A DNA stretch of 64,000 bases from a virus. Location of the stretch: positions 1 to 64,000 of the IMG/VR virus record IMGVR_UViG_3300047323_000477; one strand, 5' to 3'. This document shows, in pieces, positions 45,140 through 47,497 of the stretch (the stretch's first letter is position 1; every line of letters begins with the position of its first letter). The notes below the pieces were generated by a model that saw only the letters and a program-made list of their open reading frames with translations, was not told the origin of the DNA and made no database searches. The position numbers and the translations under genes were made by a program.

Positions 45140-45475
45140 GTGGACGCAGCCGTACGCGCCTGGCTCATCTCCCAGCTCGGCACCGACACAGACCTGCCGG
45201 ACCTCGAGCAGCGGTACACCCGGCTCGGCACCGCCCGCGCGGTAGCGCTCGAGATCCTCCGCGAACGCCTGGCCGCGCTGCTCGCCGCACCCGGCACCGT
45301 GTCCGTCTCCGGTGTCGTGTCCGTGAACTTCTCCGCGAACATCGCCGCATACGAACGGCAGATCACCAACCTCGAGTCCGGGGAACCCACCGCACCGGAT
45401 GACCCCGACGTACCGGGCGAACTCGTCGGTGACGGCTTGGAGGTCGTGTACCTCGTGGAACGGCCCCGCCGATGA
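45140..45475 (+). CDS. Head-tail connector-like protein
   Basis: A 111-residue protein from GTG 45140 with CGGAGG eight bases upstream. It begins with a helical domain (LISQLGTDTDLPDLEQRYTR, then LEILRERLAALL) and ends with an acidic linker and VVYLVERPRR. By position between capsid and MuF-like genes it resembles head-tail connector/adaptor proteins, but the sequence alone is not decisive. Confidence 0.65.
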   Translation: MDAAVRAWLISQLGTDTDLPDLEQRYTRLGTARAVALEILRERLAALLAAPGTVSVSGVVSVNFSANIAAYERQITNLESGEPTAPDDPDVPGELVGDGLEVVYLVERPRR

Positions 45476-46308
45476 CCACCCCCACCCGGCGCCGCACCCT
45501 CCGCGCCCGCCTCATGGCGTTCATCGCCGACGCCACCAGCCGCATCACCGCCGCGTGGCGAATCCTCACCAACGCCCAGAACCGGCTCCTGGACGCCCTC
45601 GCCGTCATCCGGCCCGGCCGTAGCGCCTCGGTCCGGATCCGTGCCGCGCAGCAGGTGTTCCAGCGCAGCATCGCCGACTTCAACCGGGCCGTCGGAGCGT
45701 TCACCGAACGGTGGGCCGCAACCGACCTGCCCCTCGCCTACCGCGAAGGCGCGTTCGGAATGCTCGACCGGGCCGACCGGCCACGACGCATGTGGTCCTG
45801 GACCGCCCGCCACCAGAGCGCCATCACCACCCTGTCCTCCCAGTACTACGCCGACCTCATGGGCCGCCTGCAGGAAGCGGTCCGCCGCGCCCAGACGTTC
45901 CTCCGTGCCGCCGTGGACGCCGCCCGTGTGCGCACCAGCCGGTTCGAGTACGGGTCGTTCAACCGGGACACGCTGCGCGAAGAGCACCCGCTGGGCACGG
46001 TCATCTACGCCAACGACGCCCGGCACCCCGTCGAGGCCTGGGCCAGTGCCGCCATTGCCTGGCAGGCCGTGACCACCGCCAACGCGGGCGCGGTCGCCAC
46101 CGCCTACGAGCAGCTGCAGTGCACCCAGGTCAAGGTCCGCGACGGATCTGGGTGCGGGTGGCGGAATCACGGTGACGCCGACAAGGCCGACGGCACCATC
46201 CGCGACATCGACGACGCCCTTGCCCACCCCACAGCTCACGCCCGCTGTGTCAGGGAGTTCCTCCCGCACTTCGACCGCCCTGCTCTCCCCCTCGGCGGGC
46301 TTACGTGA
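45472..46308 (+). CDS. MuF/SPP1 gp7-like minor head protein
   Basis: A 278-residue protein. Helical N-terminal two-thirds, then the MuF-type C-terminal pattern: CTQVKVRDGSGCGWRNHGDA, then RDIDDALAHPTAHARCVREF. The Cys/His cluster and the final CVREFLP motif are the usual end of this domain. Cys259 starts a 20-residue tail beginning CVREFLPHFDRPALP. A second tail of exactly 20 residues beginning CVREFLPAPERQDQN is encoded at 47058-47117, after the intein-like insertion. The TGA at 46306 overlaps a GTG opening the next frame. Minor head proteins of this type are internal capsid or assembly factors. Confidence 0.82.
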   Translation: MTTPTRRRTLRARLMAFIADATSRITAAWRILTNAQNRLLDALAVIRPGRSASVRIRAAQQVFQRSIADFNRAVGAFTERWAATDLPLAYREGAFGMLDRADRPRRMWSWTARHQSAITTLSSQYYADLMGRLQEAVRRAQTFLRAAVDAARVRTSRFEYGSFNRDTLREEHPLGTVIYANDARHPVEAWASAAIAWQAVTTANAGAVATAYEQLQCTQVKVRDGSGCGWRNHGDADKADGTIRDIDDALAHPTAHARCVREFLPHFDRPALPLGGLT

Positions 46309-47120
46309 CCGTAATCGACTACGACCTCGCGTGCGGGTTCAGGAAGTCAGGATGCCTTGTGGAGATAGCGACGCTGGGAGGACGAGGGGTAACCGTCACG
46401 CCGAATCATTCGATTATGGCGAGGCGCGGTGGGATTGCTTCGAGCGAAATCCACGAAGGCGACGATGTAGTCGTCCGCGCCACGGAATCCGCTGCCGTAT
46501 CTACTGCAACGGACTTCGATCAGGTGCCAGCCCTGATTGAGGATGTATTCGCGGCGCTTGGGGAGGTTATTCCGAGCTTGCGTTCCGTATCCTCCGCCCA
46601 GGACTTCCACGGCGACGGAGCCTTGCTCAATGGCAAGGTCGATGTTGTAGGGACCGACGGCCAGCTGGGGCGTCAAGACGAGGCCTTGGGCCGTCAACAA
46701 GGATCCAAGCTCAGCCTCAAGGTGACTGGCCGAAGCAACGCGGGCTTGCCTCTCAAGGGCGCGCCGGGCGAGCAGGTCGTCCGACTCAACCTGTCCACGT
46801 CTGGCGGCGTGAGCGGCTTCGACGTGTGCCGGGTAGCTGGTTCCCTTCCTGATAGTGATCCCGCGCTCCTGGAGACGACTGCGCAAGGTGTTGTCGCAGA
46901 TTCCGAATTCTTGCGAGAGGCTCCGTGCCGACTCCCCGTCAATGTATCGACGGACGATATCTTCAAGGTTCGGTATTTCCACTCGGCGACGGGACACGTG
47001 TATGACCTTTCGACGTCAGAGGGGGCCTATTTCGCTAATGGAATTCTAGTGCATAATTGCGTGCGAGAGTTCCTCCCTGCCCCCGAACGCCAGGACCAGA
47101 ATGTGGGAGTGAATTCATGA
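46305..47120 (+). CDS. Intein-like segment fused to a second MuF C terminus (block A not seen)
   Basis: A 271-residue frame, -1 relative to the MuF gene, from GTG 46305 (GTGA overlap). Residues 28-37 (GVTVTPNHSI) are intein block B with TxxH. The end (GHVYDLSTSEGAYFANGILV, then HN and Cys252) is a textbook intein block F/G. The sequence after the HN|C junction is the MuF tail CVREFLPAPE. Residues ~60-230 read antisense through the nuclease gene. The N-terminal block A with its nucleophile is not identifiable in frame, so splicing is doubtful unless a frameshift or trans-encoded N-intein supplies it. The stop overlaps the next ATG, as expected of the original 3' end of the MuF gene. Confidence 0.72.
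   Translation: MTVIDYDLACGFRKSGCLVEIATLGGRGVTVTPNHSIMARRGGIASSEIHEGDDVVVRATESAAVSTATDFDQVPALIEDVFAALGEVIPSLRSVSSAQDFHGDGALLNGKVDVVGTDGQLGRQDEALGRQQGSKLSLKVTGRSNAGLPLKGAPGEQVVRLNLSTSGGVSGFDVCRVAGSLPDSDPALLETTAQGVVADSEFLREAPCRLPVNVSTDDIFKVRYFHSATGHVYDLSTSEGAYFANGILVHNCVREFLPAPERQDQNVGVNS
46347..46997 (-). CDS. Vsr/DUF559-like homing endonuclease candidate, antisense inside the intein
   Basis: A 216-residue protein from minus-strand GTG 46997, with GAAAGG eight bases upstream. Residues ~10-50 form an HTH (LEDIVRRYIDGESARSLSQE, then CDNTLRSRLQERGI). Residues ~92-185 form a Vsr/DUF559-type PD-(D/E)xK nuclease fold: LTPQLAVGPYNIDLAIEQGS with Asp120, VAVEVLGGG with Glu131, REYILNQGWHLIEVR and DDYIVAFVD. 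It overlaps the intein-like frame for its whole length, codon against codon; its C terminus RHNRMIRR is the antisense of block B. Base composition is less GC-rich than the flanks. A homing role is inferred from its position in the intein. Confidence 0.8.
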   Translation of the reverse strand: MSRRRVEIPNLEDIVRRYIDGESARSLSQEFGICDNTLRSRLQERGITIRKGTSYPAHVEAAHAARRGQVESDDLLARRALERQARVASASHLEAELGSLLTAQGLVLTPQLAVGPYNIDLAIEQGSVAVEVLGGGYGTQARNNLPKRREYILNQGWHLIEVRCSRYGSGFRGADDYIVAFVDFARSNPTAPRHNRMIRRDGYPSSSQRRYLHKAS

Positions 47121-47497
47121 CCGCCCCGAGCATGGCCGACCAGCCGCACCAGATCCGCCTCACCTCCAACGGCCTGTCCGGCACCGTGGAAGTGGACGGC
47201 GCCGATATCAGCGCGCAGGTGCAGGGCTACAACCTCGAGGCCCGCGTCGGTACCGCGCCGCTCCTGGTGCTGTACGCCAGCCCCCGTGAGGGCGGTGTTG
47301 CCTTCGAAGGCCTTGCGCACGTCGCGATCGGCACCGAGCAGGACCCCGGCCCGTCGATCGCCGCGTTCCTCGCCAGCATGGACCCGGCCTCCCTCCAGCA
47401 GGCAGCCCTGAACCGCGACGACCTCGAGAACAACAAGTACGGGGTCACCCGGGCGATCCTGGCGCAGCTCGCCGACTGGGCGCAGGGGAAAGCCTGA
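47117..47497 (+). CDS. Hypothetical head-tail region protein
   Basis: A 126-residue protein. Its ATG overlaps the stop of the second MuF C terminus. It has a beta-rich first half (IRLTSNGLSGTVEVDGADIS, PLLVLYASPREGG) and a helical end (YGVTRAILAQLADWAQG). It overlaps the next gene by one base (TGATG). Proteins of this kind occur between minor head and connector genes in actinophages; the role is unknown. Confidence 0.68.
   Translation: MTAPSMADQPHQIRLTSNGLSGTVEVDGADISAQVQGYNLEARVGTAPLLVLYASPREGGVAFEGLAHVAIGTEQDPGPSIAAFLASMDPASLQQAALNRDDLENNKYGVTRAILAQLADWAQGKA

Follow-up and report, generated by a model that had tools for sequence, protein, structure and literature searches.

Phage MuF inteins with a predicted homing endonuclease gene on the opposite strand, and a putatively splicing-dead derivative in an IMG/VR virus record

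The window, by which we mean the whole stretch of 64,000 nucleotides analysed here (positions 1 to 64,000 of IMG/VR virus record IMGVR_UViG_3300047323_000477, which comprises 64,303 bases), carries directly behind its gene for a MuF-like minor head protein an intein-derived open reading frame (ORF) whose complementary strand encodes a predicted homing endonuclease (HEN). It is highly probable that this locus belongs to a family of mobile inteins with an antisense HEN, and that the window copy is a splicing-dead derivative in which the HEN has become effectively free-standing. The original prediction, made from the window sequence, had proposed a distinct intein architecture with paired frames on the same bases. 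Both points are borne out by the family: the pairing recurs in hundreds of phage inteins beyond chance, and the register, codon-position and GTDB data show the layout to be widespread.

Antisense coding is apparent from the distribution of stop codons. Sense stops are absent from the intein in all 160 loci (160/160). For 105 non-redundant intein copies, which were used for the register statistics, open reading in the exact reverse-complement register extends over a median of 263 amino acids (aa), corresponding to 95% of the intein, compared to only 60-95 aa in the other frames. The intein cores contain 20 in-register antisense stops versus 454 expected from extein codon usage, and in the 53 loci that were found by their sense sequence only, 9 were observed versus 235.5 expected on the same basis. 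Spurious antisense ORFs in the reverse-complement register are common in GC-rich genes, and the inteins were therefore compared with exteins of equal length. The median open antisense fraction was 0.95 for inteins and 0.59 for exteins; at a GC content below 0.55, the values were 0.92 and 0.34. In these low-GC phages, the antisense register was at least 80% open in 12/12 inteins and in 0/12 exteins.

The pattern of divergence also points to selection on the minus strand. Position 1 of a sense codon is the wobble position of the antisense codon, and it is the most divergent one in the intein cores (.307/.111/.196 for positions 1/2/3). In the intein ends (.135/.062/.265) and in the exteins (.259/.197/.477), divergence is highest at position 3. 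The ratio of position 1 to position 3 changes smoothly along the intein, from 0.61 at the N-terminal end to 1.53 in the core and 0.36 at the C-terminal end, and the core pattern is repeated in Salmonella phages alone (.245/.046/.115). Furthermore, the HEN start codon lies opposite the His codon of intein block F, as its reverse complement, in 77/105 copies, and a strict Shine-Dalgarno motif precedes 58/96 of the block F His starts but only 79/802 background positions. A free-standing HEN homologue in Acinetobacter phage IME285 (L205:455-1348) shows many stops throughout its reverse register; the openness of this register in the family therefore stems from the location inside the intein. Together with a relative from a Rhizobium phage (L208:913-1500), it represents an ordinary free-standing gene, and such relatives are a possible source of the intein HEN.

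MTES_1575 matches 57/60 antisense proteins, and the AlphaFold (AF2) model of the antisense protein has a predicted local distance difference test (pLDDT) score of 89.4. Its top Foldseek matches are E. coli Vsr (1vsr) and I-Bth0305I (3r3p), with a probability of 1.00 and E ~4e-3. Residues E94, D120, E131 and R148 are present in at least 99% of the antisense proteins. Judged from these models, the antisense protein is a predicted homing endonuclease of Vsr/EDxHD-like fold with a helix-turn-helix (HTH) part. The sense intein model of locus L096 matches Mtu RecA and other inteins but is confident only at its ends, and residues 129-205 are predicted to be disordered. Sense residues ~84-128 (the DFHGDG segment, alignment A4) show conservation at every codon position, and their sense model is of fair confidence; this segment may be functional on both strands.

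The antisense ORF could alternatively be a side effect of high GC content in a sense gene, with the sense core forming a real domain and no protein being made from the minus strand. Long but spurious antisense ORFs of GC-rich DNA do arise in the exact reverse-complement register, and the conserved, fairly modelled DFHGDG part of the sense core would suit this explanation. We consider it extremely improbable, since the register is also open at 39-50% GC, where that of the exteins is not, and since sense position 1 of the core is more variable than position 3. Moreover, start and Shine-Dalgarno signals are present, the minus strand has nuclease and HTH homology, free-standing homologues are ordinary genes, and the sense core at residues 129-205 is modelled as disorder with a pLDDT of 30-40.

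The family of inteins with an antisense HEN is large. A tblastn search with either window frame retrieved more than 100 phage records (Salmonella, Gordonia, Pseudomonas, Vibrio and others), the matches lying mostly within MuF or head morphogenesis genes, and in profile-guided scans of IMG/VR, the antisense protein had 247 relatives and the sense protein 426. Overall, hundreds of IMG/VR contigs contain related MuF inteins, as do more than 100 named phages and ~20 bacterial genomes. In GTDB, 20/22 loci have the antisense HEN, and these loci come from Chloroflexi, Actinobacteria, Acidobacteria, Cyanobacteria, Campylobacterota and others. One GTDB locus, L187 of Brasilonema, carries a broken antisense HEN, with a longest piece of 115 aa, and an intein sense frame that is still open, which we read as HEN decay after fixation. 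The usual insertion site is the MuF motif HPN/CRC (slashes denote the insertion point). The gp8 intein of Mycobacterium phage Sejanus (L207) lies at another site of the host gene (VWV/CTIDGKTRPSH) and gives an antisense HEN match as well. The Intein_splicing model matches 47/47 relatives, and Cys1, the T and H of block B and the terminal Asn are invariant among these 47 sequences, whose intein boundaries were themselves defined with the help of Cys1 and the terminal Asn. With an unbroken frame through the host gene and known empty alleles, as expected for in-frame insertion, the family is by its sequence features a mobile class 1 intein of the Cys type.

Mobility is further indicated by comparisons of inteins and exteins. 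The joined exteins of Salmonella phage SGP009 align unbroken, at 95% identity, to the intein-free MuF of SE131_1NRH. Moreover, NFG5577 and SE1 share.95 extein but.69 intein identity, whereas SGP009 and NFG5577 share.72 extein and.77 intein identity. Such near-identical empty alleles and the discordance of inteins and exteins indicate mobility of the element.

The parent element is, in our preferred reading, a mobile intein located immediately ahead of the conserved Cys in the HPN/CRC motif. The sense strand encodes its splicing domain in two terminal portions, and the DNA between them constitutes the opposite-strand gene for the HTH and Vsr/EDxHD-like HEN, beginning within block F and ending near block A. 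Because both frames are in exact reverse-complement register, the MuF precursor would be translated through the HEN gene, which would yield a disordered spacer, and the HEN avoids the Leu codons TTA and CTA and the Ser codon TCA, which would be stops in the intein. Expressed from an antisense transcript, the HEN would cut empty MuF alleles at HPN/C, repair would copy the whole intein in, and the translated MuF precursor would then self-splice.

In the window (Table 1), several parts of the original prediction are confirmed: block B and a complete NGILVHN/C motif are present on the plus strand, and the minus-strand ORF matches REase_MTES_1575 at 8e-7 as well as HTH models, is preceded by the ribosome binding site GAAAGG and runs antisense through block B. 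The predicted nuclease is supported, although with a Vsr/EDxHD-like rather than generic PD-(D/E)xK fold. The reading frame of the window HEN has no stop or frameshift and retains the near-invariant residues E94, D120, E131 and R148, so that the HEN looks intact. The predicted homing site is uninterrupted in the MuF genes of L006 and L010-L014, and the Streptomyces-phage relatives L016-L018 carry an intact intein, HP(N or H)/CVVEGTEVEA...GILVHN/C, exactly at the position homologous to the HAR/CVREFLP junction of the window. Both kinds of allele that the original prediction had called for were found.

Table 1. Features of the MuF locus in the window (positions refer to the window; slashes denote the insertion point)
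Feature	Position	Strand	Remarks
MuF-like minor head protein gene, complete	45472..46308	+	phrog_37388 match 6e-95; 70% identical to ZL12
Patch with 19 mismatches to contig L009	46146..46221	none	possible conversion tract beside homing site
Predicted homing site HAR/CVREFLP, uninterrupted in MuF	46234..46263	+	junction 46245/46246
Chimeric sense ORF, 271 aa, GTG start	46305..47120	+	start overlaps MuF stop (GTGA)
First 8 codons VTVIDYDL, from neighbouring exonuclease-like gene, fused to intein	46305..46328	+	match ZL12, L016
Intein without block A, rest of splicing domain kept	46329..47057	+
HEN gene, 216 aa, GTG start	46347..46997	-	exact codon register with sense ORF
Intein block B, TPNH	46398..46409	+
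Vsr/MTES_1575 nuclease domain of HEN, residues 92-167	46497..46724	-	conserved E94, D120, E131, R148
HTH DNA-binding part of HEN, residues ~11-44	46866..46967	-	HTH models
HEN start codon GTG	46995..46997	-	reverse complement of block F His codon (GHVYDL)
Shine-Dalgarno-like GAAAGG	47006..47011	-	8 nt upstream of HEN start
C-terminal splice motif NGILVHN and Cys+1	47037..47060	+	TIGR01443 above cut-off
Old C-extein copy CVREFLPAPERQDQNVGVNS, then stop	47058..47120	+	second, diverged duplicate of MuF 3' end
Next structural gene (ATGACCGCC...)	47117..47497	+	directly 3' of MuF in empty alleles L010-L012

The window copy itself is intein-derived, as proposed, but it does not interrupt the MuF gene. 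This gene is complete and ends with its own C-terminus, HARCVREFLPHFDRPALPLGGLT followed by a stop, which matches the MuF ends of L006 and L010-L014, relatives that lack the intein and have the next gene directly 3' of MuF. The virus record is related to Streptomyces phage ZL12. The sense ORF is in another frame than MuF, and Pfam Intein_splicing matches it at 2e-7 over profile positions 45-155 of 155. About 15 N-terminal residues of the intein, including Cys1, are missing, and block A with Cys1 in frame with the N-extein, as required for a class 1 intein, is lacking. No block A was found in any frame near 46245-46330. CSPPRRAY, a regular expression match in L015/L095, was rejected as a block A candidate, being out-of-frame MuF sequence. 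A programmed frameshift that would lead from MuF to the intein frame was likewise rejected, as the native MuF C-terminus is present and Cys1 would still be absent. Because block A is absent, the window intein is predicted to be unable to splice, and for this copy there is no support for the proposal that it is a mobile intein with a splicing frame still connected to MuF. The proposed limits of the feature (46246-47120) also need revision: it extends outside them, and the first eight codons of the sense ORF come from another gene. These codons, VTVIDYDL, correspond to the start of the gene after MuF in ZL12 (MTAIHYDLEF) and L016 (VTCIDYDLEF), which from its sequence appears exonuclease-like. 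Behind them, the window intein follows from ..LACGFRKSG, which aligns to ..IELAYRFKKSG of L018; at its other end, NGILVHN is followed after position 47057 by CVREFLPAPERQDQNVGVNS.

This arrangement probably arose by an illegitimate recombination in which an empty MuF gene, along with the first codons of the gene behind it, was joined to an intein downstream of block A. Such an event would have restored MuF, abolished splicing and left the HEN effectively free-standing, with the old C-extein duplicate behind it. An assembly chimera is partly excluded as an explanation of the junction by its presence in a second contig, L009, the exclusion being only partial because L009 is near-identical to the window. 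Over 7152 aligned bp, the two differ solely in 19 mismatches, all of which fall into one patch that lies 25-100 bp upstream of the homing site in MuF. In this patch, L009 resembles L014, and the window resembles L010; the patch is a possible gene-conversion tract. The gene slot directly downstream of MuF varies among the ZL12-like phages (L006, L010, L013, L014 and L016-L018), which suggests a recombination hotspot adjoining the homing site.

Two other views of the window copy have to be weighed. The HEN and the intein remnant might be a decaying relic, i.e. non-functional passengers of phage mosaicism. The loss of block A, the disconnected splicing frame and the confinement to one phage population would fit such a relic, and L187 demonstrates that HEN decay occurs; the HEN frame free of stops and frameshifts and its four retained residues speak against it, as does the divergence between the window and L016-L018, which follows the antisense constraint (aa difference.35-.38 in antisense and.57-.61 in sense), although most of this divergence may predate the fusion. 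We regard a relic as a serious possibility that falls somewhat short of probable. Alternatively, the copy might act as a splicing-independent homing element similar to the WHO elements, composed of a cleavage-resistant complete MuF 3' end, the HEN and a duplicate 3' arm. Its geometry is the same as that of the WHO elements at yeast FBA1 (PMC7282813), and the intact HEN residues and the sharp recombination patch close to the site would agree with this. Since a single illegitimate recombination readily accounts for the junction, the arrangement is limited to one lineage and the resistance of the window's own HAR/C site is only assumed, we consider such activity quite unlikely.

Several points weigh against our preferred reading of a mobile intein family with an antisense HEN and a splicing-dead window copy. 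The two contigs with the window junction do not represent independent evolutionary events, and the Foldseek matches to Vsr and I-Bth0305I have modest E-values. The EDxHD His is not invariant: H138 is found in 67/105 antisense proteins (64%) and is replaced by G in the window. Moreover, splicing, cleavage, antisense transcription and homing are inferred, whereas both frames, the antisense constraint, the homology, the empty alleles and the window junction were shown. Going beyond this reading, antisense coding of the HEN might be a stable and ancestral trait of a large class of mobile inteins and uncouple HEN expression from the late capsid gene, with the window copy as a step towards a splicing-independent, WHO-like element that restores its host gene; we put this forward as a rather doubtful extension.

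Hundreds of phage inteins with a HEN on the other strand, codon opposite codon, provide a very clear example from nature of genes that overlap antiparallel over a long stretch and are selected on both strands, with empty alleles, a free-standing homologue and exteins as built-in controls. They bear on how endonucleases enter and leave inteins, and offer compact dual-coding elements in which splicing and cutting could be studied separately. Furthermore, many annotated phage "head morphogenesis proteins" conceal an unannotated endonuclease gene.

In usual inteins, the endonuclease is described as an in-frame domain. Like mobile class 1 Cys inteins, the family is inserted in frame at a host motif that is conserved, has Cys1, TxxH and HN/C, occurs sporadically and is associated with a HEN. 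In contrast, its HEN is an opposite-strand gene that overlaps the splicing blocks, and its nuclease is Vsr/EDxHD-like rather than LAGLIDADG or HNH. The "fractured genes" reportedly described by Dassa et al. in 2009 are split inteins whose halves flank a free-standing Vsr-like HEN, and thus also combine an intein with a Vsr-related HEN gene in phage genes. A fractured gene or split intein was rejected for our family, as host gene and intein form one unbroken sense frame that continues through the HEN, which shares its bases in register. I-Bth0305I, the EDxHD enzymes and E. coli Vsr are the nearest solved folds of the antisense protein; EDxHD enzymes have been described for group I introns (PMC3943268), and their His is not invariant in the family. 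MuF inteins have been annotated in Salmonella phages (PMC8425127). The ShiLan domain, a hidden HNH endonuclease in a phage methylase, is likewise encoded in another frame of an insert that is kept open in the host frame, but as described it is of HNH type and has no splicing domain (PMC11855218); the words "antisense", "opposite" and "reverse complement" are absent from that text. Because we found no prior description of an antisense-coded intein HEN in the open-access literature, the sole literature searchable, we rate the layout as a new form of mobile intein. Finally, the window copy has the layout of the WHO elements (PMC7282813), with a restored, complete host gene, a HEN and a duplicated fragment of the host 3' end; the yeast WHO proteins are fusions of intein and zinc finger, whereas homing of the window copy is only conjectured.
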